Of a stretch of DNA of 64,000 nt, positions 36,187-51,916 are shown piece after piece. Every line of letters begins with the position of its first letter. The first letter of the stretch is position 1. The stretch spans positions 1 to 64,000 of the forward strand of contig NZ_CP046525.1 in assembly GCF_021497965.1 (NCBI RefSeq), in the 5' to 3' direction. The position numbers and the translations under genes were made by a program. The notes under the pieces are model-generated. The model worked only from the letters and a program-made list of their open reading frames with translations, made no database searches and was not told where the DNA came from. Source of the DNA: Streptococcus infantis. GTDB lineage: Bacteria > Bacillota > Bacilli > Lactobacillales > Streptococcaceae.

Positions 36187-36251
36187 ATTAGCACCTCTAT
36201 ATATAAGATGCTACTAGTATAACGCTATCTTTTCCTTTTGTAAAATATAGA

Positions 36252-36281
36252 AATCCTATCGAAGTGATAGGATTTTTTTAT
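36252..36281. terminator. Terminator between yigZ and cysK
   Basis: TCCTATC-GAAG-TGATAGGA stem, then a T-run on the plus strand. On the minus strand the same stem is followed by only a few T, so direction is uncertain. Confidence 0.55.
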
Positions 36282-36332
36282 ACCGGATATAAAAGAGTAA
36301 GGTTAGATAAATAAGGCAGTATTTCCGTTATT

Positions 36333-36968: not shown

Positions 36969-37008
36969 AATGTTATTGTACTAAAAATTAGGATAAAGTT
37001 CTAGATTT

Positions 37009-37016
37009 TACGAATA
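37009..37016 (+). promoter_or_regulatory. ComX (SigX) cin-box of comFA
   Basis: TACGAATA, a perfect match to the consensus, preceded by TTT. Only seven bases separate it from the annotated comFA start. As the box works at -10, transcription would begin at about the A of the ATG. Confidence 0.93.
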
Positions 37017-37023
37017 AAGAAGT

Positions 37024-38322
37024 ATGAAAATAAACCCAAATTATCTAGGTCGACTTTTTACTGAAGATGAATTAAGTATGGAAGAACATCAGTTAGCAGT
37101 GAAACTCCCAAGTATGCGAAAAGAGAAGGGAAAACTAGTTTGTCAACGATGTGATAGTGTGATTCAAGAAGAATGGTTATTGCCCATTGATGCATACTAC
37201 TGTCGAGAATGTCTGTTGATGAAGCGAGTTAGGAGTGATCAAGGTTTATATTATTTCCCTCAGGAAGAATTTCCAAAACAAGAGGTTCTTAAATGGCAGG
37301 GACAATTGACTCCATTTCAAGAGAAAGTATCAAAAGGATTACTTAAAGCTGTAGAAAGTCAGCAGCCAACTTTAGTTCATGCCGTGACTGGCGCTGGGAA
37401 AACAGAGATGATTTATGAAGTTGTGGCAAAAGTCATTAATGATGGTGGGGCAGTTTGTTTAGCGAGCCCCCGGATAGATGTTTGTTTGGAGTTATATAAA
37501 CGACTACAAAATGATTTTGCCTGTAAAATCGCGTTGTTACATGGGGAATCTGAACCATATTTTCGGACACCTCTAGTTGTTGCAACGACTCACCAGTTAT
37601 TAAAATTCTATCAAGCTTTTGATTTACTAATAGTTGATGAAGTTGATGCTTTTCCCTATGTTGACAACAAGATGCTTTACAAAGCTGTAAAGAATTGTGT
37701 AAAGGAAAACGGACTCAGCATTTTCCTTACAGCTACCTCTACAGATGAATTGGATAAAAAGGTTCGCTTAGGAGAGTTGAAAAGGTTAAGTTTACCAAGG
37801 CGGTTTCATGGTAACCCCTTAATAATTCCCAAACCAGTCTGGCTATCTGAATTGGACAATTACTTAGACAAACATCGTCTACCACCCAAATTAAAAAGCT
37901 ATATAGAAAAACAACGAAAATCAGGCTATCCATTACTCATTTTCGCTTCAGAGATTAAAAAAGGAGAGAAGTTAAAGGAAATCTTGCAGCTGCAGTTTCC
38001 AAATGAGAAAATAGGCTTCGTATCGTCTGTTACAGAAGATCGATTAGAACAAGTTCAAGCATTTAGAGATAGAGAATTAACCATCTTGATAAGTACAACA
38101 ATATTGGAACGTGGAGTTACCTTTCCATGTGTAGACGTAATGGTTGTCGAAGCAAATCATCGCCTCTTTACAAAATCGAGTTTAATTCAAATTGGAGGAC
38201 GAGTTGGACGCAGCATGGATAGACCAACTGGAGATTTAATTTTCTTTCATAATGGATTAAATCGTTCGATTAAAAATGCCATAAAAGAAATTAAGTTGAT
38301 GAATAAGGAGGCAGGTTTATGA
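37024..38322 (+). CDS. comFA: Competence helicase ComFA
   Basis: ComFA is a DEAD-like ATPase that drives single-stranded DNA uptake. The 432-residue protein has a zinc finger (Cys40, 43, 60, 63 in CQRC...YYCREC), Walker A AVTGAGKTEM, the DEVD box LLIVDEVDAFP, LTATST (motif III), and motif VI QIGGRVGRSMDRP. The start ATG 37024 has no proper Shine-Dalgarno and lies at the predicted transcription start. A downstream in-frame ATG exists at 37078, but homologues begin M-K-x-NPNYLGR, which supports 37024. Confidence 0.96.
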   Translation: MKINPNYLGRLFTEDELSMEEHQLAVKLPSMRKEKGKLVCQRCDSVIQEEWLLPIDAYYCRECLLMKRVRSDQGLYYFPQEEFPKQEVLKWQGQLTPFQEKVSKGLLKAVESQQPTLVHAVTGAGKTEMIYEVVAKVINDGGAVCLASPRIDVCLELYKRLQNDFACKIALLHGESEPYFRTPLVVATTHQLLKFYQAFDLLIVDEVDAFPYVDNKMLYKAVKNCVKENGLSIFLTATSTDELDKKVRLGELKRLSLPRRFHGNPLIIPKPVWLSELDNYLDKHRLPPKLKSYIEKQRKSGYPLLIFASEIKKGEKLKEILQLQFPNEKIGFVSSVTEDRLEQVQAFRDRELTILISTTILERGVTFPCVDVMVVEANHRLFTKSSLIQIGGRVGRSMDRPTGDLIFFHNGLNRSIKNAIKEIKLMNKEAGL

Positions 38323-38981
38323 CTTGCTTACTATGTGGACAACACTTGGGAAGTAATTTAACCTTTAGAAATCTTCTTTTTTTAAAAAAGGAGGCAGGTT
38401 CGCTCTGTTTTACGTGCTCCTCAAGTTTCGAAAAAATAGGAGAAGAACATTGTCCAACCTGCTATAAAGCAGGAGTGTCAACCTCGTGTCAAGATTGTCA
38501 ACTTTGGTGTAAAGAAGGGATTGATGTCAGTCATGAAGCGATTTTTACTTATAATCAAGCAATGAAGGATTACTTTAGCCGCTACAAGTTTGATGGAGAT
38601 TATATTCTTAGAAAGATTTTTGCTTCAATTTTAAAAGATAAACTGCGAAAGTATAAAGAGTTTCAAATCCTTCTCATTCCCTTGAGTCCAGAGAGATTCT
38701 CTAAAAGGGGATTTAATCAGGTTGAGGGCTTAATAGAAACTACAGGTTTATCCTATCTGGATTTATTAGGAAAAAGTGAAGTGAAAGCAAGCTCTTCAAA
38801 AAATCGTTCAGAACGTTTAGCCACAGAACTCCCATTTTTTATTAAAAACGGCGTTACGATCCCAAAGAAAATTTTATTAATTGATGATATTTATACGACA
38901 GGTGCGACTGTTAATCGTGTCAAGAGTATGCTAGAGAATGCAGGAGCAGAAGAGGTTAGAACATTTTCCCTCGTAAGATGA
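38319..38981 (+). CDS. comFC: Competence protein ComFC (phosphoribosyltransferase-like)
   Basis: A 220-residue ComF-family protein required for transformation. An N-terminal zinc-type cysteine cluster (CLLCGQHL, CFTC, CPTC, CQDC) precedes a PRTase domain with the PRPP loop LLIDDIYTTGATV. It overlaps comFA by four bases (ATGA), so it is translationally coupled and shares the cin-box. Confidence 0.96.
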   Translation: MTCLLCGQHLGSNLTFRNLLFLKKEAGSLCFTCSSSFEKIGEEHCPTCYKAGVSTSCQDCQLWCKEGIDVSHEAIFTYNQAMKDYFSRYKFDGDYILRKIFASILKDKLRKYKEFQILLIPLSPERFSKRGFNQVEGLIETTGLSYLDLLGKSEVKASSSKNRSERLATELPFFIKNGVTIPKKILLIDDIYTTGATVNRVKSMLENAGAEEVRTFSLVR

Positions 38982-38990
38982 GGAAAAAGA

Positions 38991-39019
38991 TTGCAATAAT
39001 TTTTTGAAAGCGTTATAAT
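38991..39019 (+). promoter_or_regulatory. hpf promoter with an overlapping cre-like site
   Basis: TTGCAA (38991-38996), 17 bases, TATAAT (39014-39019). TGAAAGCGTTATAA (39005-39018) lies across the spacer and -10 and fits the CcpA cre consensus at all but one position, so catabolite control of hpf is possible. Confidence 0.6.
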
Positions 39020-39060
39020 AAATATAGAAAAACAAATATGTTTAGAAAGAAGGTACTTAT

Positions 39061-39609
39061 ATGATTAAATATAGTATCCGTGGTGAAAACCTAGAAGTAA
39101 CAGAAGCAATTCGTGATTATGTAGTTTCTAAACTCGAAAAGATCGAAAAATACTTCCAAGCAGATCAAGAACTAGATGCACGTGTAAATTTGAAAGTGTA
39201 TCGTGAAAAGACTGCTAAGGTAGAAGTAACAATTCCACTTGGATCTATTACTCTTCGTGCAGAAGATGTTTCTCAAGATATGTATGGATCCATTGATTTG
39301 GTAACAGATAAGATTGAACGTCAAATTCGTAAAAATAAAACAAAAATTGAACGTAAGAACAGAAACAAAGTTTCTACTAGCCAATTATTTACAGATGCTT
39401 TAGTTGAAGATTCAGATGTTGCTCAAGCTAAAGTTGTTCGTTCAAAACATATTGATTTAAAACCAATGGACCTTGAAGAAGCACTTCTTCAAATGGATTT
39501 ATTGGGTCATGACTTCTTCATTTACATCGATGTTGAGGACGAAACAACTAATGTAATTTACCGTCGTGAAGATGGAGACATTGGCCTTCTTGAAGCAAAA
39601 GAATCATAA
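39061..39609 (+). CDS. hpf: Ribosome hibernation promoting factor, long form
   Basis: The 182-residue long HPF dimerises 70S ribosomes to inactive 100S in slow growth. N-terminal domain: SIRGENLEVTEAIRDYVVSKLEKIEKYF. After a charged linker comes the C-terminal dimerisation domain (KPMDLEEALLQMDLLGHDFFIYID...VIYRREDGDIGLLE). It follows comFC, as in pneumococcus. In pneumococcus gdpP is next; here a 10-kb block intervenes. Confidence 0.95.
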   Translation: MIKYSIRGENLEVTEAIRDYVVSKLEKIEKYFQADQELDARVNLKVYREKTAKVEVTIPLGSITLRAEDVSQDMYGSIDLVTDKIERQIRKNKTKIERKNRNKVSTSQLFTDALVEDSDVAQAKVVRSKHIDLKPMDLEEALLQMDLLGHDFFIYIDVEDETTNVIYRREDGDIGLLEAKES

Positions 39610-39629
39610 GATATTGTCGTTTAATATAT

Positions 39630-39657
39630 AAGTGGGCTGTTGAAAACAGCTCACTTA
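39630..39657 (+). terminator. Hairpin terminator after hpf
   Basis: AAGTGGGCTGTT-GAAA-AACAGCTCACTT, a 12-base stem with one G-T pair, followed by ATTTGATTTT. Confidence 0.75.
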
Positions 39658-39673
39658 TTTGATTTTACAAAGA

Positions 39674-39702
39674 TATAAGTTGGAGTATTAACTCAACTTA
39701 TA
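39674..39702. promoter_or_regulatory. Dyad TATAAGTT...AACTTATA upstream of the acyl-CoA operon
   Basis: TATAAGTT (39674-39681) and AACTTATA (39695-39702) are exact complements, with an inner GAGT/ACTC pair. The same half-sites occur in the promoter of the enoyl-CoA hydratase gene (43309-43329). This is a candidate operator for the LysR-type regulator of the cluster. Confidence 0.5.
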
Positions 39703-39731
39703 GGGCTATTTACTTTAATTAAGTAGACAAA

Positions 39732-39796
39732 AGAAAGCGCTTTAAGTTAAAATAGTCATGTCAACAAATATTGAGCGTAAAAATGTAAGCGCTCTA
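39732..39796. promoter_or_regulatory. Two cre-like sites upstream of the acyl-CoA dehydrogenase gene
   Basis: AGAAAGCGCTTTAA (39732-39745) and TGTAAGCGCTCTAA (39783-39796) each match the CcpA consensus TGWAARCGYTWNCW at about 12 of 14 positions. Two such sites in 65 bases imply carbon catabolite repression of the operon. Confidence 0.75.
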
Positions 39797-39825
39797 AAAT
39801 TAATTTATTACAAAGGAGTCCACAG

Positions 39826-41034
39826 ATGGCAACTAAAGAAGAAATCTTGCGCGAATTATATCCAGAGGATCTATTCCACTATGCAGATGGTTTAACATTG
39901 GGAGAAGCAGAAGTTTTACAAGAAACTCGTCGTTTGATTGAAAAACACCTTCGTCCTGTAATTAATGAATATTGGGAAGCACCTGATTTCCCATTCGAAC
40001 AATTTTACGCTGTAGCAAAAGGCGCACAAATCATGAACAACCCTAAATTGTTCGAAGGACGAGAAGGAAACTACAAACCATCAGAACTTTACATCGCATT
40101 CTTGTACCTTGAATTAGGTCGTTTCGATGCTTCTATGGCAACATTCTTCACAGTACATGGTGGACTTTGCTACAACACAATCTTGCTTGGTGGTGATGAG
40201 CGTCAACAAAAAGAATTCCTTCCTAAATTGGCTGCATTTGACTGGCAAGGATGTTTCGCTTTGACTGAGCCATTGTCAGGTTCTGACATCGCTGGTGGTC
40301 TTGCTACAACAGCTGAGCGCGTTGGAGACAAATGGATCTTGAACGGTGAAAAACGTTGGATCGGTGGATCAGACACAGCTGACGTTGTTCCAGTATTCGC
40401 TCGCGACGTTGAAGATGGACGCGTGAAATGTTTCATCGTTCGTAAAGGTGCTCCAGGATACCACGCTGAGCCAATCCCTCACAAAGTTTCTCTTCGTTGC
40501 GTACGTAATGGTCACATTACTATGAAGAATGTTGAAGTTCCAGATTCAGACCGTTTGGTAAACATCAACGGATTTGGCGACGTAGCTCGTATCTTGACAT
40601 TTACTCGTGCTGACGTTGCTCACATTGCAACTGCAATCACTTGTGGTTCATTTGTTGCAGCTCTTAAATACGCTAAAGACCGTCAACAATTCAAACGTCC
40701 AATTGCTTCATTCCAGATCGTTCAAGAAAAATTGGCTAGAATGCAAGCTAACGCAGTAGCAGCACTTTCTTACTCAGCTCGTATCGCAGAAATGCAAGAA
40801 GCTGGTAACGAATTGATGCTTAACTCTGCACTTGCTAAATTGCATAACTCATTGGTAATGCGTGAAACAGTTGCCCTTGCACGTGAAACATGTGGTGGTA
40901 ACGGAATCACTCTTGAAACTGACGTAGCTCGCTTCTTTGCAGATGCTGAAGCAATCTACACTTACGAAGGTTCTCACGAAGTGAACGCATTGATCGTTGG
41001 TCGTGAACTCACTGGTGTCGGTGCATTCGTATAA
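39826..41034 (+). CDS. Acyl-CoA dehydrogenase/oxidase, glutaryl-CoA-dehydrogenase-like subgroup
   Basis: The 402-residue flavoenzyme introduces a 2,3-double bond in short acyl-CoA. FAD/substrate motifs CFALTEPLSGSDIAGG and WIGGSD, and the catalytic-base motif TYEGSHEVNALIVGRELTGVGAF, place it in the GCDH/ACX4 subgroup (Glu of YEG present). The arginine that holds the glutaryl carboxylate in GCDH (YRSAMSVQ) aligns by eye with Ala in FDASMATFF, so glutaryl-CoA is an unlikely substrate. No etfAB lies nearby, which leaves an oxygen-using oxidase (as for ACX4) possible. It is the first gene of the cluster, after two cre sites and an AAGGAG site. Confidence 0.85.
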   Translation: MATKEEILRELYPEDLFHYADGLTLGEAEVLQETRRLIEKHLRPVINEYWEAPDFPFEQFYAVAKGAQIMNNPKLFEGREGNYKPSELYIAFLYLELGRFDASMATFFTVHGGLCYNTILLGGDERQQKEFLPKLAAFDWQGCFALTEPLSGSDIAGGLATTAERVGDKWILNGEKRWIGGSDTADVVPVFARDVEDGRVKCFIVRKGAPGYHAEPIPHKVSLRCVRNGHITMKNVEVPDSDRLVNINGFGDVARILTFTRADVAHIATAITCGSFVAALKYAKDRQQFKRPIASFQIVQEKLARMQANAVAALSYSARIAEMQEAGNELMLNSALAKLHNSLVMRETVALARETCGGNGITLETDVARFFADAEAIYTYEGSHEVNALIVGRELTGVGAFV

Positions 41035-41137
41035 TTCGTATAATAATGAATTTGGAACGGTTGCTTAGCATTTGCTGAAAGACCGTTCCGATTCTTTCTT
41101 TATAAACTTTATATATTAAAATGAATAGGAGAAAAAA

Positions 41138-41986
41138 ATGAGTATTTCTAAAGTAATGATCATTGGTTCTGGTCAAATGGGTAGCGGAATCGCGCAAGTA
41201 TTCGCTCAATCTGGTTTTACAGTATACCTTAATGACATTAAAGAAGAATTTGTACAAAGAGGGATTGATAATATCACTAAACAATTGGCTCGTTCAGTAG
41301 AAAAAGGACGTATGTCAGAAGAAGAAAAAGGAAAAATCTTGGGTAACTTGATTCCTTCAACTTCTTACGAAGATGCTAAAAACGTTCAATTGGTTATTGA
41401 AGCAGCTACAGAAAACAGAGATATCAAACTCAGCATCTTTAAACAATTGGATGAAATTACTGCTCCTGAAACAATTTTGGCTTCTAACACATCATCTCTT
41501 TCTATTACGGATATTGCTGCGGCTACAGTTCATCAAGAACGTGTAATTGGTATGCACTTCTTCAACCCAGCACCAGTTATGAAGTTAGTTGAAGTGATTC
41601 GTGCTCTTCAAACTTCAGATGAAGTTGTAAAAGCAGTTCGCGAATTGACTGAAAAAATTGGAAAAACTGCAGTTGACGTTAAAGACTCTTATGGATTTGT
41701 TGTTAACCGTGTGTTGATCCCAATGATTAACGAAGCTATCTTTATCCTGGGTGAAGGTGTTGCTTCTGCAGAAGAAATTGATGAAGCTATGAAATTGGGT
41801 GCAAACCATCCAATTGGCCCATTGGCACTTGCTGACTTGATCGGATTGGATGTATGTTTGGCAATCATGGGAGTATTGAATAACGGCTTCGGTGATCCTA
41901 AATACCGTCCAGCACCACTATTGAAGAAAATGGTTGAAGCTGGTAAACTAGGTCGTAAGACTAAAGAAGGATTCTTTAAATACTAA
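41138..41986 (+). CDS. hbd: 3-hydroxybutyryl-CoA dehydrogenase
   Basis: A 282-residue NAD(P)-dependent enzyme interconverting acetoacetyl-CoA and 3-hydroxybutyryl-CoA. It has the Rossmann motif [18 protein letters not shown] (about 8-25), the region [15 protein letters not shown], the catalytic His in [17 protein letters not shown], and C-terminal dimerisation domain with [12 protein letters not shown]. Length and sequence style are those of clostridial Hbd/PaaH. It lies 104 bases after the acyl-CoA dehydrogenase gene, with its own AGGAG site. Confidence 0.94.
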
Positions 41987-42004
41987 GATTATAAGGAGCA
42001 AATA

Positions 42005-43183
42005 ATGAAAGAAGCAGTTATTGTTGCAGCGGTTCGTACACCTCTAGGTGCCTTCGGTGGAAGCTTGAAAGATGTTCCTGCTGTTGATTTGGGAAGTTTA
42101 GTTATCAAGAGCGCTATCGAAAGAGCAAACTTGAAACCAGAACAAGTTGATGAAGTTATCATGGGTAACGTCCTTGGTGCAGGCCTTGGACAAAACGTTG
42201 CACGTCAAATGAGTGTTAACGCGGGTATCCCAGTTGCTTCTCCAGCATTCACTATTAACAAAGTTTGTGGATCTGGTTTGAAAGCAGTTCAATTGGCAGC
42301 TCAAGCAGTATTGTGTGGAGATGCTGATATCGTTGTAGCCGGTGGGGCTGAAAACATGAGCCAAGCTCCTTATGTCCTTCCAAACCAACGTTGGGGCGCC
42401 CGTATGGGAGACTCCCAAGTAGTAGACACTATGCTTCGTGATGGCTTGACAGATGCCTTTGGATCCTTCCATATGGGAATTACAGCTGAAAACGTTGCTG
42501 AACAATATGGCATTACACGTGAAGACCAAGATAACTTTGCTGTGCAATCTCAAAAACGTGCAGTTGCAGCTATTGAAGCTGGTCGTTTTAAAGAAGAAAT
42601 CGTTCCTGTTGAAATTCCGCAACGTAAAGGCGATCCTATCGTATTTGATACAGATGAATTCCCAAGAAAAGATGCTTCATTTGAAGGACTTTCTAAACTT
42701 CGTCCAGTATTCAAAAAAGATGGTACTGTAACAGCTGGTAATGCTTCAGGTATCAACGATGGTGCTGCAGCAGTTGTAGTTATGAGTGCTGAAAAAGCTA
42801 AAGAATTGGGAGTTCCAGTTTTGGCAACTATCAAATCTTACGCAAGCGCTGGTCTTGATCCAAAAGTGATGGGTTGCGGTCCAATCTACGCATCTCGTAA
42901 AGCACTTGAAAAAGGTGGATTTACAGTTGCAGATCTTGACTTGGTAGAATCAAACGAAGCATTTGCGGCTCAAGCGTGTGCAGTTGGTAAAGAACTAGGT
43001 CTTGACCCAGAAAAAGTTAACGTTAACGGTGGAGCTATTGCCCTTGGACACCCAATTGGTGCTTCAGGATGCCGTATCTTGGTTACTCTTCTTCATGAAA
43101 TGGAAAAACGTGATGCAAAACGTGGTCTTGCTACACTTTGTATCGGTGGAGGAATGGGTACTGCAGTTATCGTAGAACGTTAA
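42005..43183 (+). CDS. Acetyl-CoA acetyltransferase (thiolase)
   Basis: Interconverts two acetyl-CoA with acetoacetyl-CoA. The 392-residue thiolase has the acyl-cysteine in [14 protein letters not shown] (about residue 88), [15 protein letters not shown] with the catalytic His, and the second cysteine in [11 protein letters not shown]. The N-terminal [13 protein letters not shown] is typical of the biosynthetic/AtoB type. It lies 18 bases after hbd. A conventional mevalonate-type thiolase is usually found elsewhere in streptococci, so this is probably a second, pathway-specific copy. Confidence 0.95.
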
Positions 43184-43460
43184 TTCATACTTTATTCTAT
43201 TGACTAAAATTTATTATATCTTACCTGAAATCTCTTCGGAGAATTTTGGGTAAGATATTTTTTATTATAAATAATTAGAAGACTAAAGTATCAAAATAAA
43301 AGCGCTTTCCTATAAGTTAAACTTATAGGCATAAGCATAAATATTAAGTGGACGGTGGTTAATAAATAAGGTATTATTATAATGTAAGCACTTACATTAC
43401 TATCGGTACTTGTTGACGCAGTACTCTATACTCAAAATAACTTAAAGTAGGAGGAGAATA
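43184..43460. promoter_or_regulatory. Internal regulatory region of the acyl-CoA cluster
   Basis: From left to right: a weak hairpin ending the thiolase transcript (TATCTTACC...GGTAAGATATTTTTT, 43217-43263); cre-like AAAAGCGCTTTCC (43297-43310); a perfect dyad CCTATAAGTT-A-AACTTATAGG centred on 43319; TATAAT (43378-43383) with no clear -35; and cre-like TGTAAGCACTTACA (43383-43396) at the expected transcription start. An AGGAGGAG site precedes the next ATG. This reads as an activated promoter under CcpA repression. Confidence 0.7.
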
Positions 43461-44240
43461 ATGAGTAATACAGTTTTATTAGAGGTTAAAGATGGTATCG
43501 GTTATATCACCATTAACCGCCCAGCAGCTTTGAACGCGTTGAGTTCAGAGGTTTTGACGGATTTAAATCTTGTTTTAGATGAAGTAGAAAAACATGAAGA
43601 TATCCGTGTTGTTATTGTTAGTGGTCAAGGTGATAAGGCTTTTGTTGCAGGGGCTGATATTAAGGAAATGGACCAAATGTCTCCAATTCAAGCCTTCGAA
43701 TACATGACATATGCCAATGATACATTTACCCGTCTGTCTGATCTTACTCAACCGACTATTGCAGTTCTTAATGGATATGCTTTGGGAGGCGGTTTGGAGC
43801 TTGCACTCTCAACGGATATTAGAATTGGCTTTGAAAAGACGATGGTAGGATTCCCTGAAGTTGGCTTGGGTATCATTCCTGGTTTCGCAGGTACACAAAG
43901 AATGTCTCGTTTGATCGGTACTAGCAAGACAAAAGAATTGATCTACACTGCTAGAATCGTCAAAGGAAATGAAGCCTATGACCTAGGAATTTTGAACAAA
44001 CTTGTTCCAGCTGAGGAATTATTGTCATCTGCTGAAGAACTAGCTAAAAGCATCATGAAAAATGCTCCGTTGGCTGTTGAAAAAGCTAAGCATGTCATTC
44101 AAGTTGGTTCAGAACTTCCTCTTAAGAATGCAATTCGTTTAGAGACAGAAGCTGAAGCTCTTCTCTTCTCTACTGAAGACAAAGTTGAAGGAATGCGTGC
44201 TTTTGTTGAAAAACGTAAAGCCGTGTTCAACCGTAAATAA
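43461..44240 (+). CDS. crt: Enoyl-CoA hydratase (crotonase)
   Basis: Hydrates crotonyl-CoA to 3-hydroxybutyryl-CoA. The 259-residue enzyme has the oxyanion motif AGADIKEM, GGGLELALSTDIRI with the first catalytic Glu and FPEVGLGIIPGFAGTQRMSRLIG with the second. Length is typical of crotonases. It begins the second transcription unit of the cluster and is followed after 16 bases by the CoA-transferase genes. Confidence 0.94.
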   Translation: MSNTVLLEVKDGIGYITINRPAALNALSSEVLTDLNLVLDEVEKHEDIRVVIVSGQGDKAFVAGADIKEMDQMSPIQAFEYMTYANDTFTRLSDLTQPTIAVLNGYALGGGLELALSTDIRIGFEKTMVGFPEVGLGIIPGFAGTQRMSRLIGTSKTKELIYTARIVKGNEAYDLGILNKLVPAEELLSSAEELAKSIMKNAPLAVEKAKHVIQVGSELPLKNAIRLETEAEALLFSTEDKVEGMRAFVEKRKAVFNRK

Positions 44241-44256
44241 TAATTGAGGTGTTAGT

Positions 44257-44982
44257 ATGAAAGCTGTTTTATCATTACAAGAAGCTATTTCTAAAGTAAA
44301 ACCTGGTAATGTCGTAGGGATTTCAGGATTCCTTGCTGTTGGTGAACCTTTGGAGTTGATCGAAGAGTTGGTTAGACAAAATCAACAAGATTTGACTTTG
44401 GTTTCAGTTGTTACTTCACATCCAGGTAAAGAAGTGGGTGTTGGCCGCCTTTGTGAAAACCACCAAGTTAAAAAATATGTTGCTGCCCACATTGGTACAT
44501 CTCCTGCTGCTCAAAAAGCATACTTTAGTGGAGAAATGGAAGTAGAATTCACTCCAATGGGTACTGTTGTTGAACGTCTTCACGCTGCTGGAGCAGGTCT
44601 TGGAGGAGTTTTGACACCGACAGGAGTTGGTACTATTTTAGAAAATGAACATGAAAAAGTAGTTCGCAATGGTCGCGAGTACCTCATTTATGACCCGCTA
44701 AAACTTGACGTAGCATTGATTAAAGCTACAAAAGCTGATAAGTACGGAAACTTGTACATTGATGGTACAACTAAGAACATTTCATTGCAACTAGCTCTTG
44801 CAGCAGATACAGTTATCGTTGAAACAAATGAAATTGTTGAAGTTGGTGAAATTAAACCGGATGACATCTATATTCCAGGTATCCTTGTTGACTATGTAGT
44901 CCAAGGCTTAACTCCAGAAGAACACCACAAGATGATGGGTGACCTCTGGACAGAGACTAATAAATTAGCGGGGGTAAAATAA
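44257..44982 (+). CDS. CoA-transferase subunit A (AtoD/CtfA-like)
   Basis: The 241-residue alpha subunit of a family I 3-oxoacid/short-chain fatty acid CoA-transferase. It has the CoA-binding loop GISGFLAVGEPLELIEEL near the N-terminus, the block GGVLTPTGVGTILE, and KADKYGNLYIDGTTKN. It pairs with the next gene, one base away, to form the heterodimer that swaps CoA between acetyl-CoA and acids such as butyrate or acetoacetate. The exact acid cannot be told from sequence. Confidence 0.92.
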   Translation: MKAVLSLQEAISKVKPGNVVGISGFLAVGEPLELIEELVRQNQQDLTLVSVVTSHPGKEVGVGRLCENHQVKKYVAAHIGTSPAAQKAYFSGEMEVEFTPMGTVVERLHAAGAGLGGVLTPTGVGTILENEHEKVVRNGREYLIYDPLKLDVALIKATKADKYGNLYIDGTTKNISLQLALAADTVIVETNEIVEVGEIKPDDIYIPGILVDYVVQGLTPEEHHKMMGDLWTETNKLAGVK

Positions 44983-44983
44983 T

Positions 44984-45634
44984 ATGAAACCAAAAGAAAT
45001 TATTGCAAGACGTGTTGCTCTTGAATTTAAAGATGGTGATGTTGTAAACCTTGGATTTGGTATTCCAAATGCTTCTGCAGACTTCATCCCAGAAGGTGTT
45101 AACGTAATCCTTCAAGCAGAAAATGGTGCCCTTCGCTTTGGTGAAACACCAACTAAAGATAATTACAATCCAAACCTAGCAAACTCAGGTGGTGCACCAA
45201 TTACTCTCCTTCCAGGAGCAGCTTTGTTTGATTTGCAAACATCATTTGCAATTATTCGTGGTGGTCACGTTGATGCGACTGTTCTTGGAGCTCTTGAAGT
45301 AAGCCAAGACGGAAGCATTGCAAACTGGATTATCCCAGGAAAATTTGCACCAGGTATGGGTGGAGCGATGGACCTTTTGGTAGGTGCTAAACGCGTTATT
45401 GGAGCAATCCAACATACTACAGGTGGCGAATCTAAACTTTTGAAAGAGTGCACATTGCCTCTATCTGCTAAAGGAGTTTTAGATCTTGTCATTACAGAAC
45501 TAGCTGTTTTTGGATTCAAAGATGGTAAATTCTTGTTGAAAGAAGTTGCACCAGGTGTAACTGTAGAAGAAGTTCTCGAAAAAACAGCCGGTGACGTTAT
45601 TGTTGCAGAAGATGTGAAGACAATGCCTATCTAG
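44984..45634 (+). CDS. CoA-transferase subunit B (AtoA/CtfB-like)
   Basis: The 216-residue beta subunit carrying the active-site glutamate in QAENGALRFGE (the family's S/AENG motif, around residue 40). GFGIPN (the oxyanion loop, about 25-30), GGHVDATVLGALEVSQDG and IVDM-equivalent PGMGGAMDLL are intact. It completes the heterodimer with the previous gene. Confidence 0.93.
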   Translation: MKPKEIIARRVALEFKDGDVVNLGFGIPNASADFIPEGVNVILQAENGALRFGETPTKDNYNPNLANSGGAPITLLPGAALFDLQTSFAIIRGGHVDATVLGALEVSQDGSIANWIIPGKFAPGMGGAMDLLVGAKRVIGAIQHTTGGESKLLKECTLPLSAKGVLDLVITELAVFGFKDGKFLLKEVAPGVTVEEVLEKTAGDVIVAEDVKTMPI

Positions 45635-45681
45635 GCTAATATTGGCTATTTTCTTCTGAACATGATATTATATATGTAAAC

Positions 45682-45711
45682 GATACTATCGCCTTTTTAG
45701 GCGGTAGTATC
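45682..45711. promoter_or_regulatory. 12-base hairpin upstream of the LysR gene
   Basis: GATACTATCGCC (45682-45693) pairs with GGCGGTAGTATC (45700-45711), one G-T pair, loop TTTTTA. No T-run follows, so it is not a standard terminator. It may be an operator or an mRNA stabiliser between subunit B and the regulator gene. Confidence 0.5.
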
Positions 45712-45758
45712 AATTGGTATCTAAATGAAAAAATAAATGGAAGTAAGGTGATAGCTAA

Positions 45759-46667
45759 GTGGATATTATACAAATGAACTATTTCATTAATATAGTCGAA
45801 TGTGGTTGCAATCTTTCGATTGCAGCAAAGAAAATCCATATTAGTCAGTCAGCCTTAAGTCAATTTGTAACAAATTTTGAAGCAGCTGAGGGAATCCAAT
45901 TATTCAATCGAAAGAATGGTAGATTGGAAAGTTTGACTGAGGCAGGACGAAAGATTTATCGTTTTGCCACAGAAATTGTTAATCGTCACGAAGAGATGCT
46001 TTCAATGATTCATATTGAATCACAAAAGCAGAGAGGGACTATTAATCTTGGTATTCCTTCTTTGATATTAAGAACGTTCTTCTCAAACACTCTACCGCAT
46101 TTTTTGAGAAATAACCCTCACATCTATATTCAAGTTATAGAGGGTGGAGGGAAAGAAATTCACCAAAAAATGAGTGACGGTGATTTAAACCTAGCATTTT
46201 TAATTGAGCCAACGAACTTAGATGCACAAAAATTTGAACAACATATTATTCATTTAGACGAGTATGTTGCTTATATGGATAAACATCATCCATTAGCACA
46301 GAAAGAAGCGCTAGATTGGTCTGATCTTGCTGATTATGATTTAGCAATCTTTAATAAAACATTTACGACTTATGATTTGGTGGTTGAGAAACTTCGTTCA
46401 CAACGCATAAATACTAAATTTGCTTATTTATCATCTACTTGGGACTTTTTAATTGAGTCTACTTATCAAACAGATTTGATTACAATTTTACCAAAATCTG
46501 TTGAAACTCTTGTAGATAGTAGTCGCTTCCAAACTGTTCGATTTAATGACCCGATTCCTTTTAATGTTTGGTTCTGTAGACCGTACAAGGATTCCTACAA
46601 CGAGGTCGAATCCTATGTGTATGAAGAATTGTTAAAAGGGTATTATCAACCCTTGTCTGAGAATTAG
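45759..46667 (+). CDS. LysR-type transcriptional regulator
   Basis: A 302-residue LTTR with an N-terminal winged helix-turn-helix (MNYFINIVECGCNLSIAAKKIHISQSALSQFV, given in parts: NLSIAAKKIHISQSALSQFV) and a periplasmic-binding-like effector domain beginning at GTINLGIPSL. It starts at GTG 45759, with AAGGTGAT suitably upstream. Placed in the middle of the acyl-CoA cluster, it is the obvious candidate regulator. The dyads upstream of the two catabolic units contain an ATAA-N7-TTAT form (43312-43326) like that bound by the LTTR CcpC in Bacillus. Confidence 0.9.
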   Translation: MDIIQMNYFINIVECGCNLSIAAKKIHISQSALSQFVTNFEAAEGIQLFNRKNGRLESLTEAGRKIYRFATEIVNRHEEMLSMIHIESQKQRGTINLGIPSLILRTFFSNTLPHFLRNNPHIYIQVIEGGGKEIHQKMSDGDLNLAFLIEPTNLDAQKFEQHIIHLDEYVAYMDKHHPLAQKEALDWSDLADYDLAIFNKTFTTYDLVVEKLRSQRINTKFAYLSSTWDFLIESTYQTDLITILPKSVETLVDSSRFQTVRFNDPIPFNVWFCRPYKDSYNEVESYVYEELLKGYYQPLSEN

Positions 46668-46683
46668 CTTGGGGTGAAGAGTA

Positions 46684-47796
46684 ATGGTCTACAATGATAA
46701 CCTTGCTAAAAGGTATAATGCAGAGATAAGCAGTCTAATTGCAAGCTATTTTGAGTATAGAACAGATAAAAATCAATTTCCAAGAGAATTGTTCGATAAG
46801 TTTATTGAATCTTTTGATATATTTTCATCCATCGTAAGGGATGAAAATTCGATTTTAAGCGAAGAATTCATGACTTTTATTCGTTTAATCTCAAAAGAAT
46901 TTGCTGCTTTTTCGACAGTTTTATTAACCCAGGCTTGCTATGGGATTTATCCTATTATTCGATACGGTAGTCCCAAACAAAAAAGTCTATATCTTGAAAA
47001 ATTAATTAAAGGAGAGATATTGGCTGGTCTAGGTTTTTCTGAGGGGTATCTTGGCGAAAATCTAGAATTAGTGAATACAACTGCGACTAAAACAAGTAAT
47101 GGATGGCGTCTTTCAGGTAAGAAATCGATTGTTTCAAATTGCCGTTTTACGGATATACTTTTTATATTTGCCAAAGTAGAAAATGATGAAAAGAAACAGT
47201 CGTTTGGATTTTTTATCGTAGACACTAAGGACCCAGGTGTTTACTTTGGAGAAGATATCCCTAAACAAGGACTAAAAGGTTTACCAATCAGTTCAGTTAC
47301 TTTTGATAATATTGAATTATCAGAGGATAGTTTATTAGGGATGACTTTAGCTGGTCAAGAACAGTTAAATGACTTTGTTCGAAAGCTTCAATTAGGTTTA
47401 AGCGCAGTTTCTATTGGAATTTCCGAAGGAGCTTTTGAAAAAGGTTTATCTTTTCTAAAGGTGAAACGTGGTTTTGGTAAGAGGTTGATTGATGCGACGA
47501 TTTATCAACATCAATTTGCTGATTTATATACAAAACTATGTGCAGCAGAAGCGTATTTCAATTCATATAAAAATCAAATGTTAGATGATTCTTTGTATGT
47601 TTCACAGATTAAATTATTTACTACAAAAGTAGCTATTGAAATTTCTGAAGAGATTATCAGATTAATAGGTCCGCTACAAGCACAGGATAAAAGCCCGATT
47701 GATCGTTATTTAAAAGATGCTAAAACTATTGAAAGTTACGGGAAATCTGGAGACTCAATTCGAAAAAGAATAGCACACCAGTGGCTAAAGGAGTAA
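46684..47796 (+). CDS. Acyl-CoA dehydrogenase-like protein lacking the usual catalytic Glu
   Basis: A 370-residue protein with the acyl-CoA dehydrogenase fold: ILAGLGFSEGYLGENLELVNTTATK for the FAD/substrate region (in parts: LGFSEGYLGENLE), GWRLSGKKSIVSN, and KRGFGKRLIDATIYQHQFADL. At the C-terminus the canonical YEGTSEIQR is replaced by SYGKSGDSIRKR, so Gly stands where the catalytic Glu should be. TEP in the flavin motif is also changed (FSEGY). It may be an inactive paralogue, bind acyl-CoA without oxidising it, or use a base elsewhere. It starts 16 bases after the LysR stop. Confidence 0.8.
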   Translation: MVYNDNLAKRYNAEISSLIASYFEYRTDKNQFPRELFDKFIESFDIFSSIVRDENSILSEEFMTFIRLISKEFAAFSTVLLTQACYGIYPIIRYGSPKQKSLYLEKLIKGEILAGLGFSEGYLGENLELVNTTATKTSNGWRLSGKKSIVSNCRFTDILFIFAKVENDEKKQSFGFFIVDTKDPGVYFGEDIPKQGLKGLPISSVTFDNIELSEDSLLGMTLAGQEQLNDFVRKLQLGLSAVSIGISEGAFEKGLSFLKVKRGFGKRLIDATIYQHQFADLYTKLCAAEAYFNSYKNQMLDDSLYVSQIKLFTTKVAIEISEEIIRLIGPLQAQDKSPIDRYLKDAKTIESYGKSGDSIRKRIAHQWLKE

Positions 47797-47800
47797 TAAA

Positions 47801-48715
47801 ATGACAGAACTCAAGTTGCAAGAGTATCAATTTCACGATATGAAATTGACATGGCTACGAGGAGCTGATAAATTAACTGATGCAGGGACATTATTTGGTC
47901 CTGTTCCAAAAGTTGTGTGGTCTCGATACTATCCAACAAATGAAGACAATATGATGTCTGAGTTGACAGATCCGATCTTGATTCAATACAAAGGGAAGAA
48001 TTACCTGATGGATGCGAGTTTCGATACGGCAAAATTGTCTGAGAAACAAAGACGCAATCTAGGAATTTTATCTGAAAGTAAAATCGAAGAGAGTTTAGAG
48101 CTTTTAGGCTTGTCTCCAGAGAAGATTGATTATGTATTGATGACACATATGCACCATGACCATTCAGGTGGTTTAACACGCGTTAATTCTGAGGGCAATC
48201 TTGTTTCTAAGTTTCCAAATGCAAAGATTATTGTCAATGATATAGAATGGTACGAGATGAGAAATCCTAATAATCGTACTCGCGGAACTTACCTCAAAGA
48301 GAATTGGGAACCGATTCAAGATCAAGTTACAACCTTCTCAGATTCGATTGATATCATTCCAGAAATTCAAATGATTCATACAAGCGGACATAGTAATGGT
48401 CACTGTATTATTTTACTTAAACAAGGTGAAGATACAATGATTCACATGGGTGATTTGATGTTAACACACGCTCATCGAAATCCACTGTGGGTTCCGGCTG
48501 TAGATGATTATCCAATGAAGTCTATTTCAGCAAAAGAAAAATGGCTTAAGCAAGCCTTTGAAAATGGTTATAAATTCTTCTTCTATCATGATCAATTTTT
48601 TGCAGTTGCAGAATTTGATAAAGAAGGTAAAGAATTTGTGAACTATGTTTTGCGCTCACGTCCACCAGTGATTCCATTTACAGAACAGCAAGATCGTAGA
48701 CCAGATTTTTTATAA
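47801..48715 (+). CDS. Metallo-beta-lactamase-fold hydrolase (YtnP-like)
   Basis: A 304-residue MBL-fold protein. Metal ligands: HMHHDH in TMTHMHHDHSGG-type context (VLMTHMHHDHSGGLT), His in HTSGHSNGHC, Asp in HMGDLMLTH, and a distal His in FFYHDQFF. It resembles the YtnP/AHL-lactonase-like group. In this cluster a thioester or lactone substrate is plausible, but there is no direct evidence. It lies four bases after the acyl-CoA dehydrogenase-like gene, so it is co-transcribed. Confidence 0.85.
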   Translation: MTELKLQEYQFHDMKLTWLRGADKLTDAGTLFGPVPKVVWSRYYPTNEDNMMSELTDPILIQYKGKNYLMDASFDTAKLSEKQRRNLGILSESKIEESLELLGLSPEKIDYVLMTHMHHDHSGGLTRVNSEGNLVSKFPNAKIIVNDIEWYEMRNPNNRTRGTYLKENWEPIQDQVTTFSDSIDIIPEIQMIHTSGHSNGHCIILLKQGEDTMIHMGDLMLTHAHRNPLWVPAVDDYPMKSISAKEKWLKQAFENGYKFFFYHDQFFAVAEFDKEGKEFVNYVLRSRPPVIPFTEQQDRRPDFL

Positions 48716-48736
48716 TTATTGCGTATAAGGAGACAA

Positions 48737-48775
48737 ATGACTAAATTCTCTTGTTTGATAGATACAGGAAAATAG
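48737..48775 (+). CDS. Possible 12-codon leader ORF before the fabK-like gene
   Basis: ATG 48737 with an excellent AAGGAG site (48726-48731) opens MTKFSCLIDTGK-stop, ending 48 bases before the fabK-like start. It may be a regulatory leader peptide or a decayed gene start. Too short to judge by composition. Confidence 0.35.
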   Translation: MTKFSCLIDTGK

Positions 48776-48823
48776 CCTGTTGAATTTCAAACAAAACTGA
48801 ACCGAAAATAAAGGAGTAAACAT

Positions 48824-49762
48824 ATGTCTATTACTAAACTTTTGCAAATTAAATACCCTATTTTCCAAGGAGCTATGGCTCAAATTTCTCACTATCAACT
48901 TGCTGCTGCTGTTTCAGAAGCTGGAGGACTAGGAATTATTGCCTCTGGTGGTATGACAGGAGAACAACTTCGCGAAGAAATTCGTGAATTGAGAAAATTA
49001 ACTGACAAACCTTTTGGTGTTAACATCATGTTAATGATGAAAAATATCAAGGATATTGTAACAGTTATTATCGAAGAAAAAGTTCCAGTTGTTACTACTG
49101 GTGCAGGAACTCCAAAACATATTATGCCATATTTGAAAGAAGCTGGTGTTAAAGTGATTCCTGTAGTTGCTAGTGTAAAACATGCTCAAAAAATGCAAGA
49201 ACTCGGGGTTGATGCAGTTGTTGCTGAAGGTTCAGAAGCAGGAGGACACATTGGTGACACTAACACTATGGCTTTGATTCCTCAAATTGTAGATGCTGTT
49301 GATATTCCTGTCATCGCTGCGGGTGGTATTGCTGACGGTCGTGGATTGGCTGCTGCCTTTACACTTGGAGCTCAAGGTGTACAAATGGGTACTATCTTCT
49401 TGGCTTCAAACGAATGTCCAATTGCTGACGCTTATAAAGAAGCTGTCCTTGCAGCAAATGATACAGCAACTGCTGTTACTGGACGTATCGCAGGAGCTCC
49501 TGTTCGTTGTATTCGCAATGAAATGACAGACCACTACATCGAATTAGAACAAAAAGGTACAAACCGTGAAGAGCTTGAGGAAATTACTATCGGTTCACTT
49601 TCTAAAGCTGTTTACGAAGGTGATACTGTACACGGTTCAATGATGAGTGGACAAATTGCAGGTATGGTAAAAGAAATTAAACCATGTAAAGAAATCATCG
49701 AAACAATCGTGGCAGAAGCACAAGAACGTCTTAAACACGTTGAAATTTCAGTAGGCGAATAA
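48824..49762 (+). CDS. FabK-like enoyl reductase / nitronate monooxygenase family flavoprotein
   Basis: A 312-residue FMN-binding TIM barrel close to streptococcal FabK (enoyl-ACP reductase II): YPIFQGAMAQISHYQLAAAVSEAGGLGIIASGG, given in parts as YPIFQGAMAQ and AVSEAGGLGIIASGG; KPFGVNIMLM; VTTGAGTPKHIM; AEGSEAGGHIG with the catalytic-region His; and AAGGIADGRGLAAAF. The housekeeping FabK normally lies in the fab cluster, so this is probably a paralogue. With the crotonase and dehydrogenase genes it could reduce crotonyl-CoA with NAD(P)H. A nitronate monooxygenase is the alternative. Confidence 0.85.
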   Translation: MSITKLLQIKYPIFQGAMAQISHYQLAAAVSEAGGLGIIASGGMTGEQLREEIRELRKLTDKPFGVNIMLMMKNIKDIVTVIIEEKVPVVTTGAGTPKHIMPYLKEAGVKVIPVVASVKHAQKMQELGVDAVVAEGSEAGGHIGDTNTMALIPQIVDAVDIPVIAAGGIADGRGLAAAFTLGAQGVQMGTIFLASNECPIADAYKEAVLAANDTATAVTGRIAGAPVRCIRNEMTDHYIELEQKGTNREELEEITIGSLSKAVYEGDTVHGSMMSGQIAGMVKEIKPCKEIIETIVAEAQERLKHVEISVGE

Positions 49763-49811
49763 TCTATCCAACAGAGTAGATTCTTAAGGCAAATATAAAA
49801 GTATATCTATA

Positions 49812-49837
49812 GGAGGGCGATTTAATCGCCCTCTTTT
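49812..49837 (+). terminator. Terminator closing the acyl-CoA cluster
   Basis: GAGGGCGATT-TA-ATCGCCCTC: a perfect stem of nine to ten bases followed by TTTTG. Confidence 0.88.
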
Positions 49838-49942
49838 GTTCTTTAAAAACCTTTACAAAACACTTGTCTAATACCCTTGTAAACTTCCTTAAGTTCGCTT
49901 TTTGCCTATATTTATGGTATAATAATGCGCAAGAGGTTTGTA

Positions 49943-51916
49943 ATGAAAAAAAATGAAATGAATCCCTTATTTGTTTACTTATTTGTTGGGATTTCCTTTA
50001 TAATCATGACCGTATTGGTTGTTTTTCTTCAAAATAATCTAGTCACAATAGTATGTTTACTTTTCTTAATGGTAGCATTTCTTTTGCTATTTTATTTTCA
50101 GAAGAAATCTTATCAGAAAACTGAAATTGAACAAATCCAGTACGTAAATCATCAAGCGGAAGATAGTTTAAGTTCGCTCTTAGAACAAATGCCGGTGGGA
50201 GTTGTCAAACTAAACATGGAAAATAGCGAGATTGAGTGGTTCAATCCCTATGCAGAGTTAATGCTGACAACGGAAGATGGAGAAATTGACCATTCTCAAG
50301 TTCAAGAAATTATAAAAACAGCCATATCTTCGCCTGGAATTTATGCCAATGTGGGAGAAAAGCGTTATGCAGTGCATCTAGATAGAAATTCTGGTGTACT
50401 CTACTTTTTTGATGTTTCTGGAGAGTACGAAGCCACAGTGGAATTGGTGACGAGTCGTCCTGTTATTGGTGTTATTTCGGTAGATAATTATGATGATTTA
50501 GAGAATGAAACATCTGAATCTGATATCAGCCATATTAATAGTTTTGTTGCGAATTTTGTTGCAGAATTTACTGGAAAACATCAAATGTTCTCTCGTAGAG
50601 TGGCCATGGATCGTTTCTACTTGTTTACTGATTATACGGTTTTAGAACAATTGATGCAGGATAAATTTTCTGTAATTGATACTTTTCGTGAAGAAGCCAA
50701 ACAGAGAGATTTACCATTGACTATGAGTATGGGCTTATCATACGGTGATGGAGATCATGAGGGCATTGGTAAAGTTGCTTTATCAAATCTCAATCTTGCA
50801 GAAGTTCGTGGTGGAGACCAAGTTGTTGTCAAAGAAAATGATGAAACGAAGAATCCAATTTATTTTGGTGGTGGCTCTGCAGCTTCCATCAAGCGGACAA
50901 GAACACGTACTAGAGCGATGATGACGGCAATCTCTGAGAAATTGAAGAGTGTCGATTGTGTATTCGTTGTTGGTCATAAAAACTTAGACATGGATGCTTT
51001 GGGTTCTGCGGTTGGGATGCAATTGTTCTCTAGCAACGTCTTGGATGATAGTTATGTAGTCTACGACTCTGAGCAAATGTCTCCTGACATTCATCGAGCC
51101 ATTCAATTTTTAGAGAATGAGGGAGTAACAAAACTCATCCCTCTAACTCAAGCTATGGAAATGGTCACTAATCGTTCCTTGCTAGTGATGGTGGACCACT
51201 CTAAGACCGCTTTAACCTTGTCAAAAGAGTTTTATGATTTATTCACGCAAACGATTGTTATCGACCACCATAGACGAGATCAGGATTTCCCGGAAAATGC
51301 TGTTATCACCTATATCGAGAGTGGAGCAAGTAGCGCAAGCGAACTTGTAACAGAGTTGATTCAATTCCAAAACTCTAAGAAAGCACGCCTAAGTCGTATT
51401 CAAGCTAGTGTTCTCATGGGTGGTATAATGCTAGATACCAAGAATTTCACCTCTCGTGTGACCAGTCGAACATTTGACGTAGCTAGCTATCTAAGAACAC
51501 GTGGAAGTGATAGTGTTGTAATTCAGGAACTTGCGGCGACTGACTTTGAAGAGTATCGATTGGTGAATGAACTCATCTTACAAGGACAGGCTGTACAACC
51601 TTCTATTCTTGTCGCTCAGGCCAAGGATACTAAGGAATATGATACTGTAGTGATTAGTAAAGCAGCCGATACGATGCTGGCCATGTCAGGTATTGAAGCT
51701 AGTTTTGTCATTGCAAAAAACCGCCAAGGGGATATTTCCATTTCTGCACGAAGTCGTAGTAAGATTAATGTGCAACGGATTATGGAAGAATTGGGTGGCG
51801 GAGGCCACTTCAACCTGGCAGCTGCTCGACTTACAGATATGAGTCTGCAAGAAGCAGGTGATAAATTGAAAACCATTATTTCTAATGAACTTAGTGAAAA
51901 GGAGACAGAGGAATGA
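49943..51916 (+). CDS. gdpP: Cyclic-di-AMP phosphodiesterase GdpP
   Basis: GdpP hydrolyses c-di-AMP to pApA. The product is 657 residues: two membrane segments (about 8-55), a PAS-like domain ([14 protein letters not shown]...), a degenerate GGDEF domain ([15 protein letters not shown]), then DHH ([35 protein letters not shown]) and DHHA1 with [16 protein letters not shown] 49943 is chosen because AAGAGG sits six bases before it. The in-frame ATG at 49925 lies two bases after the -10 TATAAT (49918-49923) and would precede the transcript start. It overlaps rplI by four bases. Confidence 0.95.

Follow-up and report, generated by a model that had tools for sequence, protein, structure and literature searches.

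What use does a Streptococcus have for a set of genes that interconvert C4 acyl-CoA compounds and, if it oxidizes such compounds, what accepts the electrons? These questions are raised by a block of ten genes in Streptococcus infantis, located within the first 64,000 nucleotides of contig NZ_CP046525.1 (assembly GCF_021497965.1); we refer to this whole stretch as the window. All ten reading frames are open and lie on the forward strand (39826-49762), flanked by hpf (39061-39609) and gdpP (49925-51916). In order, they encode a protein of the acyl-CoA dehydrogenase (ACAD) fold that we call ACD1, a 3-hydroxybutyryl-CoA dehydrogenase (HBD), a thiolase, a crotonase, the CoA-transferase subunits CtfA and CtfB, a LysR-type regulator, a second ACAD-fold protein (ACD2), a metallo-beta-lactamase (MBL)-fold hydrolase and FabK2. 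An initial annotation had described a one-strand, ten-gene block in the hpf-gdpP interval, and this description is borne out by the open reading frames and by Pfam and NCBIfam profile searches, which confirmed the families. Its view of the block as a C4 acyl-CoA module is likewise supported by the gene families present: the full enzyme set for converting a C4 acyl-CoA into two acetyl-CoA is encoded. What it missed is the absence of an electron-transfer flavoprotein (ETF), the oxidase type of the first ACAD, the lack of any AMP-binding acyl ligase besides DltA, the restriction of FabK2 to carriers of the block's first gene and a recent transfer between species.

We consider it fairly probable that the block serves as an accessory module, exchanged horizontally, through which short acids, most likely butyrate or acetoacetate and perhaps caproate, are oxidized with O2. 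The new element in this analysis is the oxidase-like character of the first ACAD. From the observations presented below, we infer the direction of flow, the O2/H2O2 step, the substrate and the regulation. Papers identified by a PMC number are cited on the basis of excerpts.

ACD1 as a putative acyl-CoA oxidase

ACD1 (39826..41034, forward strand) has an ACAD fold of the ACX4/FadE type. It scores 652.9 bits against NF052270, thereby clearing the curated cut-off for Staphylococcus-type FadE (600 bits), and shares 47-49% identity with the Staphylococcus rows. Its closest solved structure is Arabidopsis acyl-CoA oxidase 4 (ACX4, 2ix5; 292.7 bits), followed by a glutaryl-CoA dehydrogenase (2eba; 223.9 bits). 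We compared these proteins in a tree with a single plant row (ACX4) and one ACD2 row, which sits on a long branch. The tree unites ACX4 with 25 ACD1-family rows in a single clade (100/96), and three glutaryl-CoA dehydrogenases fall outside it.

The flavin site points in the same direction. The general ACAD motif is K-x-W/F-I-T, and the position of its Thr is occupied by Gly in the ACD1 family: the motif K-[RK]-W-[IV]-G occurs in 125 of 125 ACD1-family rows, many of which are the same gene fetched twice. ACD1 itself reads KRWIGG and ACX4 reads KRWIG, where the three aligned glutaryl-CoA dehydrogenases have KMWIT. In methylsuccinyl-CoA dehydrogenase, the Thr-to-Gly change was the only one of three single changes to confer significant oxidase activity, although this activity was very low relative to the dehydrogenase activity of the wild type (PMC6017585, excerpt). 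The catalytic Glu of ACD1 (E381, in the motif YTYEGSHE) is invariant across 25 rows.

ACD1 thus shares with ACX4, whose PDB record designates it an oxidase, the fold family, the clade and the Gly-type flavin site. The two differ in that ACX4 is a plant, peroxisomal protein, only about a third identical to ACD1 by our reading of the alignment, and in that the oxidase function of ACD1 is putative. On the strength of these similarities, we propose that ACD1 is a short-chain acyl-CoA oxidase of the ACX4 type.

Search for an electron-transfer flavoprotein

An acyl-CoA dehydrogenase normally needs ETF. We rejected the possibility that ETF is encoded elsewhere in this genome, as its family (PF01012) was not found there. 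We searched 197 Streptococcus genomes for ACD1. Of the 31 matches, 21 are at 91-100% identity (counting the genome under study), 5 at 64%, 4 at 48-52% and 1 at 27%. The 27% match is a different enzyme, and so we count 30 of the 197 genomes as carriers. The initial annotation had suggested a search across streptococcal genomes, and its outcome agrees with accessory status: the ACD1 type is not universal. None of the 29 further streptococcal carriers has ETF either (0 of 30 in all).

ETF does occur in 2 of the 197 Streptococcus genomes. In both, its genes adjoin another ACAD, whose flavin-site motif is K-M-F-I-S or K-I-F-I-T, such that these two genomes provide a natural control. One of these ETF-adjacent ACADs is the 27% match to ACD1; its best NCBIfam models are prodigiosin- and prolyl-carrier-protein dehydrogenases, with scores under the cut-offs. 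As a side observation on these loci (L171:5871-8843 and L172:5889-8836; L and G numbers denote loci and genomes), L171 looks by eye like a natural-product locus, with acyltransferase-, FkbH- and HBD-like genes. Among other Bacillota, ETF does not reach the cut-off in any of three Staphylococcus genomes; in S. gallinarum, a single match falls under it.

Substrate entry and proposed route

Our search of the genome for AMP-binding enzymes turned up DltA alone, and no fatty-acyl-CoA ligase (FadD) was found there. CtfAB is therefore the sole activation route that we found for free acids, and it is the likely entry point of short acids. CtfA (44257..44982, forward strand; PF01144; TIGR02429, 178.1 bits versus a cut-off of 128.5) and CtfB (44984..45634, forward strand; TIGR02428, 266.1 bits versus 243.55) form a two-subunit family I CoA-transferase, with an ENG motif in the beta subunit. 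The closest solved structure to CtfB is the butyrate-acetoacetate CoA-transferase 8k9h, and judging from such relatedness a specificity of the butyrate/acetoacetate type is most likely.

The remaining enzymes are HBD (41138..41986, forward strand; NF004474, 455.1 bits versus a cut-off of 408), the thiolase, or acetyl-CoA C-acetyltransferase (42005..43183, forward strand; PF00108/PF02803; TIGR01930, 509.9 bits versus 240.55), and the crotonase, or enoyl-CoA hydratase (43461..44240, forward strand; PF00378), whose top NCBIfam model, NF004475, gives 306.3 bits, under the cut-off of 394. We read motifs by eye from the translations: NKVCGSGLK and ALGHPIGAS in the thiolase, THMHHDH in the hydrolase and AGGHIG in FabK2. 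We take these, together with ENG and YTYEGSHE, to be the active-site motifs of their respective proteins.

Under the reading that we favor, CtfAB would shift CoA from acetyl-CoA onto butyrate, and ACD1 would turn butyryl-CoA into crotonyl-CoA, passing the electrons directly to O2 to yield H2O2. Crotonase, HBD (forming NADH) and thiolase would then convert crotonyl-CoA into two acetyl-CoA, one of which would repay the CoA-transferase, while the other could give ATP via acetyl phosphate. CcpA would repress the block when sugar is present, and the LysR-type protein would probably sense an intermediate of the pathway.

Apart from these enzymes, we observed a transporter that scores over the L-lactate major facilitator superfamily cut-off between the thiolase and crotonase genes of L145, a locus of the 64% clade. 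L149 has an open reading frame of the same length and in the same place, and the genome under study has a homologue that also clears the cut-off, at 74763. We count the L145 transporter and this homologue in favor of the proposed route.

Regulation

A site resembling a catabolite-responsive element (cre), to which CcpA would bind, lies 42 bases 5' of ACD1 (39784..39797, forward strand, one mismatch). Each of the 14 close streptococcal loci that we examined has a one-mismatch site 37-49 bases 5' of ACD1; the background rate, counted on 19 streptococcal loci, is 0.06 per 260 bases. Loci of S. gallinarum, one Aerococcus and two Ligilactobacillus have an exact match 5' of ACD1. In S. aureus, CcpA represses the fad operon (PMC12369327, excerpt). 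CcpA probably represses the block, given the conserved position of this predicted site. Upstream of FabK2, a one-mismatch site was present in 2 of the 8 loci examined (L188, from G053, and L189, from G164), and by eye L187 (G166) has a site with two mismatches.

The LysR-type regulator (45759..46667, forward strand, GTG start; PF03466/PF00126) is closest among NCBIfam models to CidR, at 152 bits and far under the cut-off of 415. A palindrome, TGTAAGCACTTACA, not assigned to a strand, is located at 43383..43396, 78 bases 5' of the crotonase gene. The palindrome TGTAAGNNCTTACA recurs 77-80 bases 5' of this gene in all 13 close loci examined that have the gene, and might be the operator of some regulator or a variant cre.

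FabK2 and ACD2

FabK2 (48824..49762, forward strand) is a paralogue of FabK, the FMN-dependent enoyl-ACP reductase, and falls short of the cut-off of TIGR03151 (428.2 versus 453.1 bits). We rejected a housekeeping role for FabK2, as the genome has another FabK at 355874, to which FabK2 is 50% identical. From its family, we propose that FabK2 is an NADH-dependent enoyl-CoA reductase. Orthologues (E <=1e-105) were found in 25 of the 197 streptococcal genomes, and all 25 are among the 30 ACD1 carriers (hypergeometric probability 5e-27, a value that ignores shared descent and is descriptive only). In two genomes examined, G053, which matches S. anginosus J4206, and the S. cristatus-like G166, FabK2 is a separate gene away from the block. 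We also considered whether FabK2 passes the electrons of ACD1 to NAD, and rejected this idea on redox grounds, the potentials being -10 mV for butyryl-CoA and -320 mV for NAD(P)H (PMC12288474, excerpt).

ACD2 (46684..47796, forward strand; PF02770/PF00441) is an ACAD-fold paralogue that lacks the catalytic Glu. It had been called degenerate; the loss of the Glu stands, but simple decay does not describe the gene. None of the 23 aligned rows (that of the window and 22 of 37 further rows) has this Glu; they come from Streptococcus, Fundicoccus, Candidatus Atopostipes, Ligilactobacillus, Carnobacterium and two other lineages, and structure prediction gives a confident, full-length ACAD fold (mean pLDDT 86.7). 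Given the open frame, the loss of Glu across genera and the predicted full fold, we rejected the idea that ACD2 is a pseudogene in the window. The gene evolves fast, with dN of 0.22-0.40 versus the six more distant loci used for comparison below; dS is saturated in these comparisons except once, where the ratio is 0.16. Mycobacterial heteromeric FadE pairs are a precedent for non-catalytic partner subunits, and by analogy our guess is that ACD2 is such a partner of ACD1.

The MBL-fold hydrolase (47801..48715, forward strand) resembles YtnP, of the lactonase family, but does not reach that family's cut-off (NF047919, 372.4 versus 425 bits); its best PDB match is 3esh.

Distribution and transfer between species

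Judged by ACD1 and the flanking sequence, the closest record among the named genomes scanned is that of S. infantis SK970, a species of the mitis group. We examined 18 named streptococcal loci, which carry the organism names of their database records. The ten-gene order behind hpf is present in 9 of them. In another 8, from S. cristatus, S. anginosus and their kin, nine of the block's genes lie at a different site, and the sequence retrieved there contains no FabK2. The last, S. oralis AZ_3a, has only ACD1, HBD and thiolase. The reported location between hpf and gdpP is thus correct for the window but is not the sole site: among the 21 sampled Streptococcus genomes in which ACD1 reaches >=91% identity, hpf lies within 1.5 kb upstream of ACD1 in 8 and is absent there in 13. 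In two relatives without the block (G001 and G002), hpf and gdpP are directly adjacent.

In G006 and G018, we observed a lone full-length thiolase gene between hpf and gdpP (L164:5876-7051 and L165:6184-7359), 81-84% identical to the thiolase of the block. It might be a remnant of the block or represent the first step of its gain.

Comparison with Streptococcus timonensis suggests recent exchange. Of 25 windows of 400 bases covering 39800-49800, all are 90-100% identical between the two species and 20 are 97-100% identical. The flanks (35400-39400 and 49800-50600) are 68-92% identical, and further upstream there is no alignment. Similarly, dS is 0.78 for hpf, as opposed to 0.02-0.07 for eight genes of the block, 0.16 for the MBL gene and 0.26 for the thiolase gene. 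Because the block is so similar within divergent flanks, we conclude from this comparison that it is a product of recent transfer between species, by replacement or gain through recombination at the shared flanks. Carriage on a plasmid or phage was rejected, as megablast matched the block to none of 72,556 plasmid records and none of 50,697 phage records.

The streptococcal members of the ACD1 tree are spread over four places: in the main clade, beside an Aerococcaceae bacterium, beside Staphylococcus, and apart. Streptococci therefore probably acquired ACD1-type genes several times. Versus six more distant loci, the six catalytic genes have dN/dS values of about 0.02-0.09 where dS is computable; the values for ACD1 are 0.025-0.067, i.e., it is under strong constraint.

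Beyond streptococci, relatives of ACD1 (E <=1e-90) were found in 55 of 395 sampled genomes of the order, streptococci included, and they span 23 of 80 genera. Fundicoccus, Carnobacterium, Ligilactobacillus and Aerococcus have related clusters that contain ACD1, LysR, thiolase, HBD and crotonase genes, accompanied by both ACD2 and the MBL gene in the first two, by ACD2 in Ligilactobacillus and by the MBL gene in Aerococcus. At the position of the CoA-transferase of other clusters, Fundicoccus has a membrane protein of 444 residues that matches no Pfam family (L050:17736-19070); by eye, it is like a GntP-type permease. A further observation concerns an alpha/beta hydrolase with weak similarity to PhaC/PHB depolymerase, encoded close to the block in the 64% clade (L145:11878-12948).

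The general statement in the initial annotation that lactic streptococci are not beta-oxidizers proved too broad, as G077 has a Staphylococcus-like fad operon that includes FadD. In this locus (L152), FadD scores over the NF052269 cut-off and the dehydrogenase and crotonase are fused. L151 and L153, from G177 and G193, have the same gene order.

Comparison with known systems

The clostridial butyrate pathway consists of thl-hbd-crt-bcd-etfAB with a CoA-transferase. The block has the same four carbon steps and a CoA-transferase; it differs in that no ETF was found and in that an oxidase-type ACAD takes the place of Bcd.

The block is also similar to fadXDEBA of Staphylococcus. ACD1 scores over the cut-off of the Staphylococcus FadE model, both systems have a CoA-transferase, and ETF over the cut-off is missing from the three Staphylococcus genomes as well. 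The comparison used the S. gallinarum counterpart of S. aureus FadE, an ACD1 relative that scores 725 on NF052270. Unlike the staphylococcal operon, the block has separate HBD and crotonase genes, a two-subunit CtfAB, LysR, ACD2, MBL and FabK2 genes, and it lacks both the FadD and the fused FadB (crotonase plus dehydrogenase) described for S. aureus (PMC12369327, excerpt). The S. aureus operon degrades fatty acids, as reported in an excerpt of PMC13170264 for a strain with two intergenic regions deleted. We considered the word "misannotated", applied to S. aureus FadD and FadE, as a possible hint of oxidase function but rejected it, as the excerpt of PMC12369327 refers to swapped names.

Another oral bacterium, Fusobacterium nucleatum, oxidizes butyryl-CoA at the expense of O2 by means of BOOR, in which a Bcd-EtfA-rubredoxin fusion acts with a flavodiiron protein to make water (PMC12288474, excerpt). 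By contrast, in the block a single flavoenzyme, ACD1, would make H2O2.

Among the matches listed in our literature searches, which mostly did not extend to subscription journals, there was neither a streptococcal description of the block nor a description of an oxidase-type FadE in staphylococci. No paper among the matches listed addresses the fate of the electrons in ETF-less Bacillota with this FadE type.

Weighing the explanations

It is important to consider a number of observations that weigh against an O2-dependent oxidation. In a scan of carriers for ETF, in which 48 genomes were named and 47 searched, ETF was over the cut-off in 2 of the 13 Bacillota carriers from outside Streptococcus (Aerococcus sp. 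1KP-2016 and Carnobacterium jeotgali) and in 3 of 4 actinobacterial carriers. Another set, which comprised 53 carriers from the order and overlapped with the first, had ETF over the cut-off in 7 genomes and not in the other 46. Because the ACD1 rows of the five ETF-bearing carriers share the Gly of the flavin site, this residue marks the clade and not the absence of ETF. Another electron acceptor is possible for ACD1; E. coli FadE, which is of a different type, may give its electrons straight to the chain (PMC11495604, excerpt). The genome (1.71 Mb) has an estimated completeness of 93%, and so an absent gene could be unsequenced, although the 29 other carriers agree with regard to ETF. With respect to regulation, we examined 11 more distant loci, and 7 of them (L145, L146, L148, L149, L150, L050 and L060) have no cre-like site within 260 bases 5' of ACD1; there is also none 5' of FabK2 in the window. 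Moreover, the window as a whole shows no excess of cre-like matches (10 versus 8.5 in shuffles), and so our argument rests instead on the conserved position. Finally, the presence of a flavin enoyl reductase that is confined to carriers suggests enoyl-CoA reduction, such that flow to butyrate may occur without air.

This last point leads to the idea that the block forms butyrate. Thiolase, HBD and crotonase would produce crotonyl-CoA, FabK2 would reduce it with NADH and CtfAB would free butyrate, such that the block would be a fermentation without butyryl-CoA dehydrogenase or ETF, and a sink for NADH at low oxygen. Beyond the restriction of FabK2 orthologues to ACD1 carriers (25 of 25), this idea fits with the location of FabK2 near ACD1 in Erysipelothrix and in L145 and L146, and with its intact GGHIG motif. 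However, repression by sugar, if the cre-like sites work, would ill suit a sink for sugar fermentation, and ACD1 would be superfluous, yet it is strongly constrained. Also, 5 of the 30 carriers lack FabK2 at our E threshold, and the count of co-occurrences ignores shared ancestry. We therefore regard butyrate formation as unlikely, though still a candidate. The retention of both ACD1 and FabK2 in 25 of 30 carriers might alternatively mean that the block alternates, with oxidation by ACD1 in air and reduction by FabK2 without it, or that both run at once, consuming NADH and O2 in a cycle that yields H2O2. A simultaneous cycle would waste NADH, and we found no regulatory sign of a switch, which together make such schemes improbable.

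The same downstream enzymes could also serve a different short acid or a lactone, e.g., a lactone opened by the MBL-fold hydrolase, 3-hydroxybutyrate, isobutyrate or crotonate. In Fundicoccus, Carnobacterium and Aerococcus, the YtnP-like MBL gene does accompany the cluster, and the permease-like protein of the Fundicoccus cluster could be read similarly. The score of the hydrolase under the lactonase family cut-off, and the butyrate-acetoacetate enzyme that is nearest to CtfB among solved structures, lead us to consider another substrate quite improbable. Least probable by far, in our view, is that the block is a decaying import of little function. Partial copies exist, namely the thiolase alone in G006 and G018, the three genes of S. 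oralis AZ_3a and a two-frame ACD2 in G022 (L160:11834-12855), and the raw dN/dS of ACD2 versus S. timonensis is 0.40, on the basis of few changes. In 3 of the 18 named streptococcal loci, one catalytic gene is in two frames, where sequencing error is not distinguishable from a break: HBD in S. infantis SK970 (L033:11304-12148) and S. oralis AZ_3a (L045:11296-12151), and thiolase in S. cristatus DD08 (L038:12170-13358). Some copies may thus be broken, which also counts somewhat against our preferred reading. However, none of the ten frames is interrupted in the window, and the low dN/dS of the catalytic genes indicates constraint.

Returning to O2-dependent oxidation of short acids, we can formulate a broader proposal, which we find plausible but hold only tentatively. 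The block would be a self-contained means of burning butyrate through a one-enzyme butyryl-CoA oxidase, with neither ETF nor a respiratory chain. It would be swapped among oral streptococci and have been gained several times, FabK2 would reverse the flow when oxygen is short, and the same chemistry would explain the ETF-less beta-oxidation of staphylococci. If this is true, streptococci of the mouth could eat butyrate released by anaerobes such as Fusobacterium, converting these waste acids into acetyl-CoA and H2O2. They would have a further source of H2O2, fed by fatty acids, and cross-feeding would be tied to chemical competition. The fate of electrons would also be explained for Bacillota that have this FadE type but no ETF, including the three Staphylococcus genomes.

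Transcription terminators

Terminators are predicted at both edges of the block. The upstream one, 3' of hpf (39628..39658, forward strand), has 14 pairs and a T-rich tail, and the other is located 3' of the block (49811..49835, forward strand). The region has 12 terminator-like sites, versus a mean of 6.9 in shuffled sequences. Between ACD1 and HBD, we observed by eye a hairpin with a T-rich tail (41053-41095) that is absent from the terminator scan, and that may lower read-through into the rest of the operon.

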